From: Salminus brasiliensis
Taxonomy: Eukaryota; Chordata; Actinopteri; Characiformes; Bryconidae
DNA: 64,000 nt
Assembly (NCBI RefSeq): GCF_030463535.1
Contig: NC_132893.1
Location: 23,850,782 to 23,914,781, forward strand
Reading direction: 5' to 3'
The notes below the pieces were generated by a model. The model did no database searches and was not told where the DNA came from. It saw only the letters and a program-made list of their open reading frames with translations. The stretch's first letter is position 1. Each line of letters begins with the position of its first letter. Of the stretch, positions 2,844 to 51,825 are shown one piece after another. The position numbers were made by a program, and so were the translations under genes.

Positions 2844-3611
2844 CTACATTTTAAGCGAAGAGCTTGCACTCTCTGCACATTTAGTGCAGAATTCCACAGA
2901 GACGTGGTCTTTGTCCACGTGCAGACAGACACCGCCTGCTGCACCTTTGTCCTCCACCTTCACTCTCTTCCTTGGCATGGCATAATCGTGGTCATTCTCA
3001 TTGGGCTCCTGGAAAAGCGAGGTAGAGAATTTCATGCCGTTCACACCGCTTAATCTGGACAACAGCTGAGCCAACATGCTCTCATTGGCCAACACAGCTC
3101 TCAAGTACCTAGTCTCATTCTCCAATTCTTCCACACGCTTGTTAAGATTGCTGTTCTCCTGCTTAAGATGCCGGTTTTCTGACGTCAATGATCCCACACG
3201 CTGCTCTAAGCCATGCAGATACTCTTTCTTCTTTAGCCGATTCATTCTCGCCGCCATGGCATTCTTGTTGATGCCACTAGAAAGCTCTTGCATTTTCTGC
3301 CTCTGCGCCGAACCTCTGCTTTGGGAAGCAGGCACATCAGATGTCTGGTCCGTAGTCCCTTCTGCATTTAGAACGGGATCTTGCATTCCAACGTCTGGAA
3401 AGGCTGCGAAGTCATCACTGTCTAAGGCCCAGCTGAAGTCAGACCTTAACAGGTCATCCAGTCCCCAGTCATTCGAATCACTTTCTGGTGAGGTTTGTAC
3501 ATTTATGCCACTTCCAGAAGTGATGAAGGGATGATCACATTCTTGTAAATCACTTGTAAATGTGGCGTCTGCGCCGTTACTGACTACTCTTCCTCTTTTC
3601 CTGGTGATCAT
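2844..3611 (-). CDS. crebzf: CREB/ATF bZIP transcription factor (CREBZF, Zhangfei/SMILE)
   Basis: The single coding exon encodes 255 residues. The order is an acidic N-terminal region with an LDDLL motif at about 51-55, a basic region at about 115-130 ([15 protein letters not shown]), and a leucine zipper to about 175. A C-terminal block follows, with a DHDY tetrapeptide at 207-210 and a Cys/His-containing end ([17 protein letters not shown]). This C-terminal block and DHxY, the known HCFC1-binding motif, are diagnostic of CREBZF, a bZIP protein that mostly acts as a corepressor or heterodimer partner. It is about 100 residues shorter than human CREBZF because the low-complexity N-terminal part is missing. 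The ATG at 3611 follows an acceptor (exon start 3664), and a non-coding first exon lies at about 4334-4480. The basic region carries an Asn at residue 117, where the human protein is reported to lack it. Confidence 0.93.
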
Positions 3612-4333
3612 TGCTGCTTTGTGATTAGTACGCGCCCTCCCCTCTGGAGTAGGACTTGCACAATCTGTAAGTGAGAAAAACAGATTGAAGAATTATTTAA
3701 GGCATCCAACCAGCCTTTCATAACATACGTGCTATATTATCACCAAATGCAACCAGAGGACAGACGTTTCGAGTATTAGCTACTAGACTAGCCAACAGTT
3801 GCGTCCGCTTATAACCTAGGCCTTGTCAGTTGGCTAACACAAGTCGCCAGAGAAATACTGTAAAGACTGCAAAATGGCCCCAAACATTGAATAAAAGCCT
3901 TAGCTAGTGAAAGTCAGACGTATACCACTTTACTTTTGGTCGGCTCTGCTTGTCACAAGAGTATTCGTTGCATAATCCCGTGAATCTACCCAGCCCGCCA
4001 AACCCCAAACAGCCTTAGCCAAATAACGCTAGCTAGCTAACAAACTACTATAGCCGTTTAACGCTTAAAATCTGTCTCAAAACAACCACAATACTCGCTC
4101 AGAAAACCCGTAATAATGTTATCATTCATATTCAGGGCTCAAAATGAGACATAAGATCATAATTGTGCGAGAAAAAGGAAAAGATTTTCAAACACGCGCC
4201 CTGTTAGCCAGGTTAGCAGCCTTCGTAGGCCACGCGCTGAGCGCCATATTCCGAGTGATGCAGCATTTTTAAAGGCAGCCGACTTCTACGATTAACTAAG
4301 CTGTACGGCCGCCGTTGATGAAGTAAAACTTAC

Positions 4334-33767: not shown

Positions 33768-42250
<8,483 letters not shown>

Positions 42251-43160
42251 GCCATTTCTACTCCCACATGTTCTTTTTTTTCCCCCTCCCACTCAACCCA
42301 GAAACTCACAAAAACCACCAACTAATCCACCCAAACGAACAATATCGCTCATTATCAAACTCTCGTCTAAGCTTCATGGCATCCCTTTGGTGAGGCAGTA
42401 TTTTACCCACTTCTTGGCTGTATTGTTCAAAGAAAAAGAGGACTTTTTTGGAGATGCTGAACATTTTCTACAGTTAAAAAAAGGATTGAATGAAAATCTT
42501 AGGAAAGGTGCTAAAGAGCTTTAGAGCTTTGAAAATGGGGGGACAAACACCACAGAAAACTTATCACTCATCTCATAAGCAAATTGTGAGCTTACGTGCT
42601 GCTTCTGCCAACCTTCAGTGGAAAGAAAAGAAAAAAAGCAGATAAGATTTGGAAAGATGATCCAAATTGAAAGAACCTATGCTATTTTGTTGTTCTGTGA
42701 TCTTCTAAACTTGATTTTGAAATGCCTTTTTTAAAGCTTAATTTCCATGTATGTGTTAGTAAACATTAGTGAAGAGTTCTTGATCACCAGTTATAACGGA
42801 AACATAACGAGCAGCTGATCATATTGGGCATCCTGGGCAGAACAATGTTGCACAAGCCTCATCGCCCTTTACAGCGTTTTACAAAGACAGCCTTTTGAAA
42901 CAGCTAAGCAGTTCCGCATGGTTTAATACTAATGTGACTTCTGTTTGTGTTCTCCATGGCATACTGTATCCAACCCTCAGGTATACAGGCTCCTTCACTC
43001 ATTCTCTCACTTATTCATTCATATCAGTGCTGATATGGAGTGTGCTACATTGGTGCTGTAAAGACCGTCTATGGCTGTGTTTGCATTTGAAGGGTGGTTT
43101 TTACATTGCCATTCAGCACTGTATCAGTCTGGTGTAAATAAAAGTGCTGCTTTTGGTTAA
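42251..43160 (+). other. arrb2: 3' UTR of arrb2
   Basis: It runs from the stop codon to just past an AATAAA at 43137-43142, about 0.9 kb. Reading frames inside it are short and unlike proteins. Confidence 0.65.
43137..43142 (+). terminator. arrb2: Polyadenylation signal of arrb2
   Basis: Canonical AATAAA about 890 bp after the stop, followed by a TG/T-containing stretch. It is the best-placed signal on the plus strand in this interval. Confidence 0.6.
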
Positions 43161-43684
43161 AATGAAATTTCTGCCTGATAAATAGAGATTGTCTCAGATT
43201 TAAAAGAAAAGTATAGTCTTCATCTTCATGTTAATACAGGTTTATTAATTGTGAAAAACATTGTTTTCCATTTACATTTTTTTGAATTTCAGAATTTATT
43301 TAATTTTTTAAATAAAACTGAAAATAATCCAACCCCTGCCTTTTTTCATTGAATGAAATAATGAGCATTATTTTATTTTTTTTTACACTTTTTATTGGAC
43401 AATACAACTGACAACTGAATTATTTTTCATATCATTTGTAGAAAAAGTTCCTTTGTTCTACAGTTCTTTTGAAGGCACATTATTCGTAAACTGATTTAAA
43501 AGGCCACTGGTTAGTGAGTATTTATTCATTCATTTTTGTTTGGCAGAGGCAGATCAGTTGAATCCCTCTGAATGATTCTTGGGCCGTGGGTAGTCGCACA
43601 CATCTGCCGACAAGACCCCCCACCATGACGTCTGTTCTGTCGACCAGCAAAGCGATTCCATCTAATAGGAAGAAAGGTGGGGAT

Positions 43685-44460
43685 GAGGTGAGTGGTGATG
43701 ATCTGACACCCTGGCCTCAATAATGCTCGTCACTGAATGCAATCAAATCCTTACAGCAATGCTCCAAATTCTAGTAGAAAGTCTTCCCTGGACAGCAGAG
43801 GCAGCTACCCCAGCAAAAGCATGATAAACGCCTACAGGAGCTTTATGAGATCCCATTCTAAATCAATAGGGATTTGTATGGAGTTGGTCCTATAACAGCG
43901 TCCACTCTCCTGGAAATGCTTTCTATGAGATTGCCTGTGGGATGTTTTGCACTAGTCATTCAAAAGAGGATTTGTAAGGTCAGATACTGCTTTTGGGACG
44001 GGAGAGCCTGGCTCACAATCTCCATTCTAGTACATTCCAAAGGGGTTGGATGGGGTTGAGGTCAGGGCTGTGTGTGGGCCAGTCAAGTTCTTCCATACCA
44101 CACAATTGCCCAAGCATGCCTTGGATTGAGCACTGGGGCAGTCAAGTTGGAACATAAAAGGGCATTCACCAAACTGTTTCCACAAAGTTGAAAGCATACA
44201 ATCATCTAAAATATCGTGATGCTGAAGCATTAAGATTTTCCTCCATTGGAACCAAGAATTCTAGGCCAAACCCTGAAAAAACAACCCCATAGCACTGTCC
44301 CTGCTCCTCCAAAATTTTAACTTGGCACAGTGCAGATAACGTTCTCCTGTCATTCGCCAAACCAGACTCGTCCATCAGACTGCCAGATAGGGAAGTGTGA
44401 TTTGTCACTCCAAAGAACATACTTTCAGTGCTCCAGGGTCCAGTGGCTGTGTTCATATAA
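43685..44460 (-). pseudogene. Degenerate Tc1-like transposon with transposase remnant
   Basis: The left part (about 43685-43830) matches the MITE family seen in the sytl2 introns. From about 43870 the minus strand resembles a Tc1-like transposase. Near 44456-44202 the frame has residue patterns such as VTNHTSL, DESGLAN and FSGFGLEFLVPMEENLNAS. These correspond to the conserved segment with the catalytic DDE context and the FSG.G...P..G.LNA stretch. Coverage is partial and broken by frame changes, and terminal repeats are not clear. It is a dead fragment lying between the arrb2 3' end and the ATG16-like gene. Confidence 0.7.
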
Positions 44461-45036
44461 TGTATATTCTGGTGACCTTTATGTATTCATAGCTTTTCTG
44501 ATTTTATCATTTATATAATATGCCAAAACAAACTACCAAATGTCAGTCAATGGATTGTCATCATTTCTAAATTGTGAAAAGGTTCAAATAAGTTTCATGC
44601 CTGAGCAGGACTTAATTATTAGGTTTAAAATTACAAATATTTAAATGATTTAAATTAATATCTGGAAAGAAATTGTTTCTAGGTTTCTAGGATCTGTATC
44701 TAGGTTGTGGTCACAGCATTGCCTTTAAATGCTTTAATTGGCTATTATCCTTTGATTTGACCTACTACTAAAATGTGTTCACTATGAGTGTTTCATAGTG
44801 CATTACTAATATTGCAGTATATAAAAAAAACAAAGATCAACACCAACACTATGGGTCAGATTCCTTAATAGGGACAAAACTTAGTTTTGCACTATATTGT
44901 TCTTTCATTGGAAATTCTCTATTCAGTAGCCTAGTTCTGGACTAGATAGCATTCTATATGGAGACCACTACTCAAAGGGAAATGTGCTTAGACACTAAGG
45001 CTTACACTCTCAAATGCAACACTAATTGTGTTGTCA

Positions 45037-45042
45037 TTTATT
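45037..45042 (-). terminator. Candidate polyadenylation signal of the ATG16-like gene
   Basis: Minus-strand AATAAA (plus TTTATT), 170 bp past the stop that is read directly (45214) and 44 bp past the stop of the alternative frame (45086). Confidence 0.4.
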
Positions 45043-45213
45043 AATTTCAGTGATGCTACCAGTAACTTAAAATAAGTCTTGAAATTTACTTCACTTTTAC
45101 CCATGAAAATACAGAGAGTTTGGTAACCCGCCTTTGGTAGCTGCTGTTAAATGGGACATTGGGTCTAGCACTGGGCACACTTGCATGCATCTGCTTGTTG
45201 TTGTCCAAATTAT

Positions 45214-47665
45214 TTATCTGTTTTTCCAAAATGGCATAAAATCTCTTTTTTGTCTGATCCTGTAAAGTTACCAGTTTCTTTTCTTTAACACCAACAAGCT
45301 GCTGATTTAAACAGATTTACAGAAGACAGACATTTACCTTTCAAGAGTAGCATTGTGTTTATTAAGACGTTCAGCCTCTCCTCTCTTCTCTTCCAACCAG
45401 CGCTCAAGTAGCTCCTCCTTTTCCTGAAGTGTAACTGCAAGCTCCTTCTTTAGCATTTTGTGCTCCAGACTCAATGCTGCCAACTCTTTGGACTGACACT
45501 CCAGTCTATACTGATACTCTGACAGATCATCCTTCAGTGAGCACGCTCCTTTGGCCAGCACAACAGCTTCACTGCGGTAGCGGGCGACTCTACAGCAACA
45601 GGAGAACACACTGTGAAATAAGGACAACCTTTGTGACCAGTGTGAAAATACAGAGGTGTCTGATCTGTGGATTTACTTACTGAGAGTGACAGTACTGCAG
45701 CTCCGCCTCCCTGAGGTATAGATCACTGGTCAAGTCTGAGACTTTCTGTGCAAGCTGGAAAATAAAATTATTTCTCTTTATCACCAACCTGTGTGCAAAA
45801 GAGTTTGTAGTGATTTCATAATATCTGTAGTTTCAATACTGAGATTACTTCAGGGCATTATACATATTGCTGCTCCCCAACGAAAACCATGCATCTCCAC
45901 GTTTGGCCGTTTTGTGTTCTCTCCTCAGTTTAAACCCTGTAGCTGCTCTGTATACTGTGTAAATATTTATGGATGAATATTCCAAGTAATTCAGACATTT
46001 TTTTTGGTCTAAACTCTTAATTTACATTGACTTCCATTCAGAGTTAAGAACATTTTTGCCTTCTCCTTTAAAGTCACCATTCTGGAGATTCTTCAGCAAC
46101 AATATGCTATATCTTTTTATGCTATAGTGGCAAACAGCAATACTTTTAGCACTTTTTGCTAGAATATAAGCAATATATCCAATTAATATCCAATAAATCT
46201 TTTTGTAACTATGTTTTGTGCATTTTGCTAATGAAATCCAGGAAACGACAAATGGGAGAAATGCTATATCAGGATCTCTGAACAAATGGGTTTAGTCAAA
46301 ACCAGCTAAACATTTTAACATAGAACACTAGTATTCAGGTAGCCTAATGCCATAGACCTGATTAATAATACCCTAGTTGCCAAGTTTTAAGGGAAATGTC
46401 ATGATGATCTCAATATCCCTATCCTTGTTCAAAAACATTACAGGCAACAAATAACTAAAATATTATATAGTATGTGAAAATATTATAGATTATTACACAA
46501 GTACCATATAGCACCATATAAGTCTACAGTTTCTAACTGCATTACAAAGCATCTTTCTGTAAAAGACTGTGAATCAGTAAAGGCTATCCAGTCAATGGGG
46601 CGATATTGAAATTATAGTAAATGTGATACATTAAATTAGACAAAGGAAAGTCAACCAATATTAAGAGTTTGGAAAGGTCTAGAGTTACCAGAGAAACGTA
46701 GTGTTTACCGTGTTATTTGAAACATTTCATTTAAGAACATACCTCTCGTCTGTCATGCTCGGTCTCTTTTAACTCCAGATAAAGTTTTGGAGGGGCGTCC
46801 CCTTGAACCGGCCTTCTTGCTCTATTTTCAGTTGAACTGAAGGGTGAAAAACACAGAAAAACAAGCTGTGAACACGTCACAACAAAGTCAGAACATGAAA
46901 ACGGTTTTATCTCTGACCATGTCTTCTCAATTTACCTGTGCTTCTCCAAGTCCTCCCATAAACTCAGGTGGAGACTTAGCATGTCTTCTAACCTGGATAC
47001 TAACATTAGAAATAATAATAAATAAAATAAATAAAAATAAATAATAATGCAACATTCAAAAACCAGTGTATAAAAAAAATCTTGAAATACTACTCATTAA
47101 TATAAATATATATATATATAAAAAATATTTTATAATTTAATTTTTAATAATTTTATAATTAATTAATTTTAAAAACATGATAAACACACATGAAAGCCAC
47201 GCTACTATGAAATATTTTACTTTGAAATAAAAGCTAGATTTTTCTGAGCCAAACTAATTTGTGCAGTATTTATTTATAGCCAGGAATCATTCTCAAATAC
47301 ATTTACCAAAAAATATCAAATGTCAATTAGATATTTGAATATATAGTATCGCTATAGCCCTACACAATTACAGACAACAGATAAGAGATGAGCCTCAATA
47401 CATCAGGAATATGAACTCATTTAATAGTGTTTTATGGATTTAAAACACATATTTAGTTCCTGATATTATCTGGAATGCTATTCCATAGTTTAACAGCTAT
47501 ATAAGAAAAGCTTTACTGTGTGACAGTTAACCCCGTTTCTCCACACTCACCAGCAGGAGGATAGTCAGCTAGTTTACCTTTGGTGAAGAGTCCAGAGAAG
47601 GGGTCTTTCTGGGAGCAGTCCCTCTGAAACAGCTTGGCCCGCACGTGACTCTTCCACAGCTCCAT
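45214..47665 (-). CDS. Short ATG16-like coiled-coil protein without WD40 domain
   Basis: Six exons join in frame: 47665-47578, 46999-46936, 46836-46743, 45754-45681, 45589-45338, 45259-45214 (205 aa as read). The N-terminus MELWKSHVRAKLFQRD resembles the ATG5-binding helix region of ATG16 (W+..+...RD pattern). Residues about 85-190 are a continuous coiled coil. The segment ELLERWLEEKRGEAERLN aligns well with ELVTRWMAEKAQEANRLN of human ATG16L1, where ATG16 dimerises. ATG16 brings ATG12-ATG5 to membranes to direct LC3 lipidation. No WD40 exons occur downstream on this strand, where only 3' flank and transposon debris are found. The last exon reads out after 15 codons, whereas the +1 register stays open and protein-like to 45086, so a one-base difference is suspected. 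An ATG16L2 relative or a separate paralogue are both possible. Confidence 0.75.
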
Positions 47666-48127
47666 TACCTCGGTCTACTCAGAGGTTAGAGAGTTGTCCT
47701 TTCCACTCGTTTCTCCAAAGGCAATTCAATAAGACGACTTCGGAGCTAACCTTAACCTTAATTCCTCCTAAACACTTAAACCGAATAGCTTTAGTTCACA
47801 GCAGACACCAGCTCTCCATCCTCTCCCCCACAGCTGGTTTCGCGTTTTCCTGAAACGCAAAATGTCCCTCTCCGCCTGCCGTTACTGGACTGTCTGTGTG
47901 CGTGTTGCTTTGTTATGAGGTTTGTTTATAAAACGTTGTATTAAATAACATTAGTATTAATGTATCCCGTCTTCTAGTCGATGTAAGTGACCTGTAAGCT
48001 ATCTTTCCATGGTTTGTTGTCGTTGGTTTTCCGCTGAAGCTCTCGGAAACACTGTGGTGGGCGGTTGCTAACCGTGCTGGTTCTTCTGTGTTTTACCTTT
48101 AGATGAAGTAGATAAAAGTCTCTGGAA
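47666..48127. promoter_or_regulatory. Head-to-head promoter of the ATG16-like gene and med11
   Basis: Only 462 bp separate the two divergent start codons. The segment is moderately CpG-containing and has no TATA box at a convincing place. Such spacing suggests a shared bidirectional promoter. The transcription starts are not known. Confidence 0.55.
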
Positions 48128-49366
48128 ATGGCAAACGACAGACTGCGAGCCCTGGAGGACGTGGAGAAGGAGATCGCCGTCGTTCTTCAGTGTGCAGGTA
48201 GCAATGGGTCTCCACACTTAGCCAGCTAAAGTCCCTTTGCCGTGAGGTAGCTAGTTAGCTAGCTAGTGCTAGCTAGTGTTAGCACCCTGCTGTGATTATC
48301 AGCGGAGTCTGATGAAGAGGACCCGGTATCCAGCGTTTCTTAACTCACACCTAGGATTAGTGTGGGGTTATGTATCAGTCACCATTCAGCTAACTAGTTT
48401 TACATGGCCATTTATATCCTCTCTAGACCAAATTTGCTAATGTGCCTTTAAGACTGATGTATGTAAATGATCTCTGCTCTGATTGGCTGTGTTGTAGCTA
48501 ATGGTAATATTCCTTATTACCCTCAAACTCATTTATTCATTACTTGAAGAGATACCCTTCAATTTTCCTTGAGATGCCACAGTCACCCTCTTTAAAACAT
48601 GAACTAAAAACATATTTAATGATGTTGGTTAAAATGGGTTGGCAGTTTCCCTGTGTTAGGATTTTATGTTGACTCTGATGCTTCTAACATTTGTTGATTT
48701 AAAAAAAAATAATAATAATAATTCTTTTTTGTCCTGTATTCAGGAACTATTATTCTGGAGCTGTCGAAGGAGAAGCACAATGCAAGTTTGTTGGATCGTC
48801 AGCTCAACCAGTTCCAAACCTCTATTAACAGAGTGGAAAGTGAGCTCAGCTCCCAGATCCGCTATCTCACACAGGTGGGCATGTTAAGCCATTCACACAG
48901 ATGTATAAATTCAGTAATTTATATTTTACGTAATGTTTAAGTAGATGACATTCACATGCACATGAAACTAAAGAGGATTTATTTTGTCCTGCTGTGTGAA
49001 AGCTTCACCTTTCCAGCTGTTTTACACATGTATCCTTGTTGATGCCTTTAAGTCTTTCTGGTTGAAGGAAATGGTGCATATAAAGAACTTGCATGTCACA
49101 AAGGAATGTAACATCTTTGTGTGATATTAGCAGTGGTGCACTGACTAGTTGTGTGAATCACTAAAGACATCAATCCTACACAGTTGCAGCGTGTTGACTT
49201 TCTCTTCTCCATTTGAGTGCAGGTGGCGACAGGACAGCCTCATGAAGGCTCAACGTACTCTGCGCGAAAGGACTGCCAAATGGCCCTGAACCGTGCAGAA
49301 TATGCCCGGGTCAAACTGGGAGAACTAGGGCGCACCTGCGAGTTAATGCTTGACCCGCAGACCTGA
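48128..49366 (+). CDS. med11: Mediator complex subunit 11
   Basis: Three exons (48128-48197, 48744-48874, 49223-49366) give 114 residues; human MED11 has 117. The protein starts [20 protein letters not shown]. It continues with the conserved blocks [26 protein letters not shown] and [19 protein letters not shown], which identify MED11 without ambiguity. MED11 is an essential head-module subunit of Mediator that forms a helical bundle with MED22 and contacts TFIIH and Pol II, acting in the nucleus in general transcription. The few residues before the start in the human protein are missing here. The arrb2-med11 neighbourhood also exists in human at 17p13, with the ATG16-like gene in between here. 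Confidence 0.95.
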
Positions 49367-49653
49367 TGCGATGCACCATTGTTCTAATGCAAACTGCTTG
49401 TACGCCTTACACCCTGGAATAGGAGTTGGGTTATTATGTAAATGATCATGTATGTTCTCCAGTTGCTGGAATGCTATATCTGAAAGGAATCTCTCTGACC
49501 TCCTAAAGTTTTCTTCTGTTTTAGAAACAGGCTGACAAATTGAAGGTTACCGAGGTCAGACAAAGACTTTGTCAGTCTTTTTCTTCACTAAATGTCATCA
49601 CATTGGTTAATTAACATGGTTTGTATTTTTTGTTGTTTTGCTTTTTGATAAAT

Positions 49654-49692
49654 AATAAAACAAAAAAGTTGTTGAAACAATGGAGCTTTATT
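49654..49692. terminator. Facing polyadenylation signals of med11 and rnasek
   Basis: AATAAA at 49654-49659 serves med11 on the plus strand. TTTATT at 49687-49692 is AATAAA for rnasek on the minus strand. They lie 28 bp apart, so cleavage 15-25 bp after each would make the transcript ends overlap slightly. The interval 49700-50354 is then the rnasek 3' UTR. Confidence 0.55.
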
Positions 49693-50354
49693 TCCACTTC
49701 ACATGTTATTCACATTGCCATCACATTCACAAACAGTACCTTCATATTGTAACAGAAACCACATGAAGTAAACAAACAAGGGAGGAACACAAAGTAAAAT
49801 AAGTTAAGAAATTAGAACTCAACATGAACAATGAATCAGTGCATTAAATAAATAACATTGCTGTCACGCTGTATTTAATAGAGGTACTTGGCTTCTCTTC
49901 ACTGTATAGGTTGTCATTAAGAGTTAGCCTTTATTGTGGTCCACTCAGCTTGGATTTTCTTTCACTAGGAATGTGTAATTAAACAGGATCCTGCTGGTTT
50001 TTAGTTTACAAGGACATTCACATACATGCATATGAACATTATCATTAATAAGTGAAAAACAGTTTACTGATCAGAGCTGGGTTTCCTAAATGCATTTAAG
50101 CATAATGATTATTCTTAAGGGTAGAGACAGAAACACAGAACACTCTCTACCAGTTAAGAAGATCTTACCACCAAGATGTTTTTGGGAAACTAGGCCTCGT
50201 TTAATCTGTCTCTGTATATTTATATTTGTCAATATTTCTCCACTCCAATAATAATAAATAAAATGCTAATCCACAGGTCTTCACATTAGCCACCTACAAA
50301 TAAATAATGATTGGAAGATTTGAACTGCGGTTAATTTTGTGAACTGCTTGTAGC

Positions 50355-51825
50355 TTATGTCACCATGTATTCCTGACGTTTGTTCAGGCGAACCTGGCAC
50401 AGAGACACAGCACCAACTCCGACATAGATGGCTGCAGCAATGAAACAGTTGATGCCCACTTGGTTGTACAGTGCATAGATGTTCTGGGGTGGACTTTTGC
50501 TGCAAATAAGACAAAAAACAGAAAAAAATCTTAGAAGGTGTGTGACAATTTGCCTGGCCTTAGAATTAAAGTGGAATACAACAGACATTTAAAAATATCT
50601 GCAGAATGAAATGTTGTACAGCAGTGGTGATTTGCCCATCTCTAAAATGTCTTGTCATGTCACGTCCCTATGCTTCAGCATACACACAAAAGGAAAATGA
50701 GGCTTACTAATTTGACTTGAATTTCTTCAAAATCTACCTTTGCAGTGAAATGGTTGCAAATATGTTGCCTGATGTTTTACAGCAAAGAAAATGGGTGCAT
50801 TTGTGTTTTAGACTAGACATCCACCTCTGTTACAAACACCCCACAACTGGTTTAACATGAGCAGAATCAAGAGGGTTTACAACAGGAGGGCTTGGACTTT
50901 GACCACAAGGTTGTGGGTTCAATACCCAGCTCCACCACGTTGGTCTATTCAAACAGAAGAATGTCACTGAACAAGTATAAATAGATGAGGCCCTAAAATG
51001 TCAAGGGAGAAAAATAATATTTTGAGACATGAACCGTTCCCTTCATTTAATAAATTGTACACTCAAACAACCCTTTTCTTTATTAGTTTAACAATCATTT
51101 ATCTTGACTTAATAAATCATTCACTCAATTTAATAAATATTTCCCTCAATTTAGATGGGATGCTTTAGTAAGACTGGGGAATTAATTTATTTAATTGAGG
51201 TAGCGCTAAAAGAAAAGGGGGATGAATTAAGTTATCACCGGCTCTGTATAAATGACAACAGATTATTATTATTAATATTATTATTATTATTACTACTACT
51301 AATACTGCTAATATTAACAACAACTCACTCATTACGGATGTCTTCTTCAGTGAAGGGAACATCCTCGATCAGAACAGCAGATTTTGAACAGAAGAAGATC
51401 CCCAACATTGCCTAGGAAAAATAACATACAGAATTTATGAGCTCTTCTTTATAGTATGATTTCTTAGAGGGTGAAATGTGTGGCATTTCATCACGACCAG
51501 CATCAATATCCAGTATCGCCCAGGACCCACTGCCTACCTGCCTCGACAGTATCAGTTAACCTAGCTACTAGCTACAAAAATCGGAACAGACAAGACCCAA
51601 ACGTGATAAAACAGACAATTTTCAACGTTAAGGAATCATTCATTTGGCAAGCAAACAGAGAACATTAGTGGTTGACGTTCTCCTGTTTTCCGGCTAACGT
51701 TAGCTTCTCAGCTAGCTAGCAATGTCACGAAGACTATGGGCGCTTACCAGCATTATGACTCCCCATACACTGAGCACAATGCCGCAGGCGGCCAGTTTGG
51801 GGCCACAAAATAGCAGAGACGGCAT
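50355..51825 (-). CDS. rnasek: Ribonuclease kappa (RNASEK), V-ATPase-associated membrane protein
   Basis: Three exons (51825-51748, 51411-51329, 50499-50355) encode 101 residues, close to the usual 98. The protein starts [18 protein letters not shown]. It has a first membrane segment at about 10-33, a loop with [15 protein letters not shown], a second membrane segment at about 68-90 and the end [14 protein letters not shown]. All of these are hallmarks of RNASEK. The protein associates with the V-ATPase membrane sector and is needed for endosomal acidification; ribonuclease activity has been reported for it. It shares a roughly 500-bp interval with bacc1, in head-to-head orientation. The exon 3 acceptor (TTATTTGCAG) and both donors are consensus. 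Confidence 0.95.
50870..50960 (+). repeat. SINE-head fragment in the rnasek intron
   Basis: A B-box-like GGGTTCAATACCC with flanking text (GACCACAAGGTTGTGGGTTC) resembles the SINE at 14229. The tail is missing. Next to it, 51020-51165 carries reverse-oriented TTTCCCTCAATTTA-type motifs. Confidence 0.4.
51020..51165. repeat. AT-rich degenerate repeat, second locus
   Basis: CCCTTCATTTAATAAATTG, GACTTAATAAATCATTCACTC and AATATTTCCCTCAATTTAG are successive degenerate units about 30-55 bp apart. They are the reverse complement of the motif at 34430-34690. Confidence 0.5.

Follow-up and report, generated by a model that had tools for sequence, protein, structure and literature searches.

The autophagy protein ATG16L1 makes contact with its partners through several sites. 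WIPI2 site 1 is formed by E226 and E230 within region 207-230 (PMC4104028, PMC8455133) and WIPI2 site 2 by D164 and E165, the human counterpart of the D101/E102 pair through which yeast Atg16 binds Atg21 (PMC10688262). The RAB33B contacts and the splay residues W194, E197 and E201 have likewise been named (PMC7395093, PMC8496732), and I171, K179 and R193 are reported to act in membrane targeting (PMC8496732), I171 and K179 being phosphoinositide-binding residues. An ATG16L1 mutant unable to bind WIPI2b did not rescue starvation autophagy (PMC4104028). According to PMC11050548, canonical autophagy did not depend on the WD40 domain in earlier studies, whereas the paper's own data show it to be weakened when the domain is missing; non-canonical autophagy requires the domain. 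The second vertebrate paralogue, ATG16L2, forms an ATG12-5 complex and does not bind WIPI2b or RAB33B (PMC7395093, PMC4104028).

With regard to genomic position, human ATG16L1 adjoins SAG (PMC5791184, PMC3297573, PMC3782427), and the OMIM gene list of 2q37 gives INPP5D, ATG16L1, SAG and DGKD in that order (PMC5791184). ARRB1, FCHSD2, ATG16L2 and INPPL1 share one segment in gene lists of cat and horse (PMC6976565, PMC8532986), to which the cat list adds SYTL2 and CREBZF (PMC6976565). The four arrestin genes form a paralogon (PMC5795056); ATG16 goes unmentioned in the text of that paper and of PMC5501109. In the OMIM list of human 17p13, as given in PMC5791184, PELP1, ARRB2 and MED11 are consecutive with no ATG16 gene between, as the first-pass annotation of the present locus had supposed.

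Here, we describe an ATG16-like gene found between arrb2 and med11 in a fish genome. The window analysed is a stretch of 64 kb on contig C16 (C16:23850782-23914781), and all positions without a contig name refer to it.

Gene structure and family membership

The gene, which was rebuilt from a reading of positions 42000-50500, runs on the minus strand from 47665 to 45214 and encodes 205 residues in six open exons separated by five introns (578, 99, 988, 91 and 78 nt), all of the GT..AG type. The extent proposed in the first-pass annotation was thus exact. The start codon (47665-47663) has G at both -3 and +4 and an in-frame stop upstream, and the stop codon ends at 45214. By our reading of the sequence, exon 1 (47578-47665, 88 nt) holds the start codon and the putative ATG5-binding helix WKSHVRAKLFQRD and ends in phase 1, exon 2 (46936-46999, 64 nt) ends in phase 2, and exon 3 (46743-46836, 94 nt) encodes a linker and ends in phase 0. 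The coiled coil is encoded by exon 4 (45681-45754, 74 nt) and exon 5 (45338-45589, 252 nt), both ending in phase 2; exon 5 contains the peptide ELLERWLEEKRGEAERLN and a RAB33B-type site, ERWLEEKRGEAERLNKHN.

Exon 6 (45214-45259) is truncated. It reads RIRQKR, with the RxRQ pattern of ATG16L1 exon 6, followed by an unrelated tail (DFMPFWKNR) and a stop 15 codons into the exon. Because of its weak pyrimidine tract it is the least certain exon, its acceptor being the weakest splice site of the gene (pyrimidine fraction 0.41). However, retention of intron 5 leads to an immediate stop after ...NATLER, so that the protein would end there whether the intron is spliced or retained. Reading exon 6 in another frame (KRFYAILEK...) was rejected, since it requires an acceptor judged poor by eye, and since exon 6 of this genome's own ATG16L1 starts with RRRQ in the frame chosen here. 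A candidate polyadenylation signal, AATAAA, lies at 45037-45042 on the same strand, 171 nt past the stop codon. GC content is 0.48 in the exons versus 0.31 in the introns, a weak sign in its favour.

Both neighbours were as previously proposed. The arrb2 gene (35021-42250, plus strand; first coding exon not located) ends at 42250 and is therefore convergent with the ATG16-like gene, while med11 (48128-49366, plus strand; Pfam Med11, 72.8 bits with joined exons) starts head-to-head with it at 48128. The 462 bp between the two start codons (47666-48127) are a candidate bidirectional promoter for this head-to-head pair; CpG observed/expected ratios reach 0.90 in 400-base windows overlapping this interval. 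Near these three genes lies rnasek, and beyond it a Myb-like DNA-binding exon was observed at about 53.0-54.2 kb on the plus strand (Pfam Myb_DNA-binding, 29.7 bits). At the other end of the window, a long minisatellite-like array extends from about 5.0-5.9 kb onward, its open frames reading ISWHTIRHIFNQLAHHPAHLKSAGTPSGT repeats.

The first-pass annotation had assigned the product to the ATG16 family, an assignment that the profile searches upheld. In hmmscan, the 205-residue product scored 51.7 bits with Pfam ATG16 (PF08614; cut-off 33.7 bits, E 1.6e-13), residues 8-183 aligning with positions 2-200 of the 200-position profile. Four other Pfam families were listed, all under their cut-offs, with CENP-F and Fez1 at E 0.003; no unrelated coiled-coil family exceeded its cut-off. 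None of eight heptad-preserving shuffles matched the ATG16 profile. Residues 80-205 alone still scored 42.1 bits with it, and residues 1-79 alone matched no Pfam family. In a phmmer search of the PDB, the ATG16L1 chain 5npv_B was matched at E 6.1e-9 (product residues 3-196, chain residues 6-213) and the Atg16 chain 6rgo_C at E 0.0045; the top four of the seven chains listed at E <= 10 were ATG16 chains. Weak coiled-coil matches were all that NCBIfam returned, including SMC under its cut-off (E 0.0002), and a scan of the viral contig and genome contig collections revealed no relative.

Regarding the N-terminal helix, its 13-mer scored 38 against the ATG5-binding helix of human ATG16L1, which was the best value in the 64 kb (next-best 26 among 60,574 stop-free six-frame windows). 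Nine of 31 residues are identical to the human stretch, a score reached by none of 100,000 shuffles. The heptad pattern was reached by 46 of 20,000 shuffles, which is consistent with a predicted coiled coil and, as far as sequence can indicate, a dimer. A single-sequence AlphaFold2 model placed helices at residues 2-17, 24-56 and 67-197 (mean pLDDT 77.7, pTM 0.37); Foldseek returned no matches for this single-chain model.

Descent of the gene

A PF08614 search of the whole assembly (1.07 Gb, 103 contigs, limit E <= 0.001) yielded nine matches: exon 5 of an ATG16L1 gene on C11, exon 5 of the ATG16-like gene, and seven tandem repeats. Six of these repeats form one cluster at C11:38.09 Mb and one lies at C3:1.22 Mb; their TEVNTLT and DSVSTLN units imitate PF08614, and the six-frame matches pass the E limit and in some cases the cut-off. 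The search also gave below-cut-off signals in 6 of 14 control genomes.

The gene on C11 is the canonical ATG16L1 of this genome, with WD40 exons (plus strand, about 35.9487 to 35.9677 Mb). Its N-terminal half shares 74% identity with human ATG16L1; about 9 kb further along lies an arrestin gene (plus strand, 35.976-35.984 Mb). From the chosen start codon, its exons 1-6 measure 106, 94, 91, 74, 252 and 66 nt, exons 4 and 5 thus having the same lengths as in the ATG16-like gene. The phases after exons 1-5 (1, 2, 0, 2 and 2) are identical in both genes, and all five introns agree in position and phase. In ATG16L1, too, the phase-1 end of exon 1 lies at a distance of 26 residues from the Trp, and exon 6 begins RRRQAK as the counterpart of RIRQKR. 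These shared introns, phases, exon lengths and exon 6 start indicate that the two genes descend from one gene.

The products have diverged deeply, with 28% identity between them. Over human residues 126-207 the coil shares 22 of 82 residues with human ATG16L1 (27%); coil identity over that region is 73-100% in ATG16L1 orthologues, which range from those of fish to those of mammals (PMC3782427). As the value falls outside the orthologue range, the ATG16-like gene is to be regarded as a paralogue and not as an ATG16L1 orthologue; moreover, it neighbours arrb2 instead of SAG, and ATG16L1 is already present on C11.

The first-pass annotation had also stated that the gene lacks the seven-bladed WD40 domain, and this was confirmed for the 64-kb window. 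There, a human WD40 query found nothing better than E 0.37 and the WD40 query from the genome's own ATG16L1 had no match at E <= 1. As positive controls, the WD40 exons on C11 were recovered both with full-length human ATG16L1 and with the WD40 query from the fish gene. Splicing into WD40 exons inside the window was rejected on the basis of these two empty searches. As a separate observation, a DDE-transposase remnant (43581-44500; Pfam DDE_3, 22.3 bits, below cut-off), pieces of which recur at 22.1, 14.1 and 23.6 kb of the window, occupies the expected site of the missing exons, between the gene and arrb2.

By contrast, the likeness to the short yeast Atg16 that had been pointed out earlier did not hold as a relation. 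In position and phase its introns match those of a vertebrate gene, the ATG16L1 of the same genome, which argues against a simple yeast-type origin, and the acidic pair used for Atg21 binding lacks its first residue, the corresponding residues being K and E. Given this intron structure, the best interpretation is an animal gene that once carried WD40 and was shortened in exon 6, i.e., a putative secondary loss.

The arrestin gene next to it is of the ARRB2 type. Nine of 13 paired segments favoured ARRB2, one was a tie and three slightly favoured ARRB1; one segment was detected by ARRB2 alone, and the best PDB chain was a beta-arrestin-2 (397.8 bits, compared with 387.7 for the best beta-arrestin-1). 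A place beside arrb2 suggests a third copy from whole-genome duplication. We therefore consider it probable that the gene is a third fish ATG16 paralogue, which we designate ATG16L3, and that the whole-genome duplications of early vertebrates left it beside arrb2, only its first six exons being retained afterwards. The reading frame, intact despite the deep divergence, was also counted in favour of this reading. The simplest account, which we infer from the three pairs ATG16L1-SAG, ATG16L2-ARRB1 and ATG16-like gene-ARRB2, would be that ATG16-arrestin linkage predates the duplications. Since ATG16L1 and its arrestin are both on the plus strand of C11, and here arrb2 is on the plus and the ATG16-like gene on the minus strand, this account needs an inversion. 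The name 'ATG16L3' did not occur in the literature collection searched, and an automatic annotation of the gene may already exist.

Two further genes of the window bear on its history. A crebzf gene lies at 2844-3692 on the minus strand (63% identical to a C-terminal piece of human CREBZF), and a large C2-domain, synaptotagmin-like gene at about 10-20 kb on the same strand (Pfam C2; best PDB chain synaptotagmin-7), which we take to be SYTL2-like. The distance of the two to arrb2 is about 15-32 kb, whereas the cat list places CREBZF and SYTL2 with ARRB1 (PMC6976565); possibly, they are extra members of the paralogon. The same cat segment, with SYTL2, CREBZF, ARRB1 and ATG16L2 (PMC6976565), raises the main competing explanation, namely that the gene is not a third one but the ATG16L2 of this fish in a truncated, rapidly evolving form. 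The high dN of ATG16L2 (PMC13020874) would fit, as would the genome-wide search, in which only two true ATG16 exons were found, those of ATG16L1 and the ATG16-like gene. No ATG16L2 was detected at E <= 0.001, a limit under which a diverged ATG16L2 could fall. However, the arrestin of the window is ARRB2-type by both segment scores and PDB chains, med11 comes next as in human 17p13, the product matches ATG16L1 at E 1.3e-11 but ATG16L2 only at E 0.32, and it is ATG16L1-like at W194, E197 and E201. Taken together, we hold an identity with ATG16L2 to be unlikely, while giving it more weight than any of the following explanations.

The better fit to ATG16L1 than to ATG16L2, together with the intron structure, would equally be expected of an ATG16L1 copy that arose in the teleost duplication or later and moved here. 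This is improbable, given 28% identity to an ATG16L1 that is itself 74% identical to the human protein, and given that a teleost-duplication copy is expected beside the arrestin neighbouring ATG16L1 and not beside arrb2. Still less probable is a pseudogene or functionless fragment: the WD40 half was not found in the window and the last acceptor is weak, yet despite deep divergence the gene has six open exons, five canonical introns and a polyadenylation signal, and its contact residues are kept. Finally, a generic coiled-coil protein merely resembling ATG16, to which the sub-threshold matches to CENP-F, Fez1 and SMC might point, was dismissed as hardly credible in view of the full-profile Pfam ATG16 match over its cut-off, the negative heptad-preserving shuffles and the five introns common to the gene and the genome's own ATG16L1.

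Contact residues and predicted function

Contact residues were read via the phmmer alignment with the ATG16L1 chain 5npv_B. In the ATG5 helix, whose positions we take to be human W13, I17, L21 and R24, the first and the last two are kept and I17 is replaced by V, as judged from sequence alone. Human F32, I35 and I36, presumably the membrane helix positions, correspond to F, L and F. I171, K179 and R193 correspond to L, E and R. All nine RAB33B contacts and splay residues are kept (E186, R193, W194, E197, K198, E201, A202, N206 and N209). Six of them (E186, R193, K198, A202, N206 and N209) are also present in human ATG16L2; as ATG16L2 is reported not to bind RAB33B, these residues do not prove binding. 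At the sequence level, only W194, E197 and E201 separate the product from ATG16L2 in this site.

In contrast to the RAB33B site, WIPI2 site 1 is missing: the protein ends at about human position 228, with its unrelated tail, and has no counterpart of E226 or E230. WIPI2 site 2 (D164 and E165) reads K and E, and the FIP200 site (230-246) has no counterpart. With WIPI2 site 1, the FIP200 site and the WD40 domain absent, the published mutant data lead to the prediction of a WIPI2-blind partner of ATG12-ATG5.

It had been proposed in the first-pass annotation that such a protein supports ATG12-ATG5 or disturbs it, and both are plausible; from its sequence, a diverter or competitor is more likely than a substitute. 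ATG16L3 would bind ATG5 through its first helix and dimerise through its coil, giving an ATG12-ATG5-ATG16L3 complex that WIPI2 and FIP200 could not recruit to phagophores and for which the route to single membranes through the WD40 domain and V-ATPase would be closed as well. The likeliest effect would be that a share of ATG12-ATG5 is diverted from WIPI2 sites, whereby canonical LC3 lipidation would be held down or the E3 moved to RAB33-bearing membranes derived from the Golgi. More tentatively, and as a possibility that we rate well below the paralogy itself, a third ATG16 may have been kept since the early duplications, each ATG16 with its own arrestin, the fish copy having become a WD40-less scaffold, blind to WIPI2 and FIP200, that builds an ATG12-ATG5 complex of its own on RAB33 membranes, thereby setting part of LC3 lipidation apart from canonical autophagy.

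If expressed, the gene would represent a natural version of the truncations with which the parts of ATG16L1 in canonical and single-membrane lipidation have been dissected, and its product a possible natural ATG5 competitor where autophagy and infection are modelled in fish.

Among known systems, ATG16L1, both the copy on C11 and the human one, shares with the new protein the ATG5 helix, the coil, the residues of the RAB33B site and an arrestin neighbour, and the copy on C11 also the five intron positions and phases. It differs in that the ATG16-like protein is 27-28% identical, ends in exon 6 and is devoid of WIPI2 site 1, the FIP200 site, the propeller linker and the WD40 domain. ATG16L2 is similarly a diverged second ATG16, linked to a beta-arrestin gene in the cat and horse lists (PMC6976565, PMC8532986); unlike the new protein it has a WD40 domain, and human ATG16L2 has lost the W194, E197 and E201 that are kept here. 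Yeast Atg16 resembles it in having an ATG5-binding helix and a coil without WD40, at a similar short length, whereas the shortness of the new protein would go back to a separate truncation, its gene structure is that of a vertebrate ATG16L and its Atg21 pair is K-E instead of D-E. Lastly, TECPR1 competes with ATG16L1 as another partner of ATG5 (PMC12005411); not being an ATG16, it offers a parallel for the proposed mechanism only.
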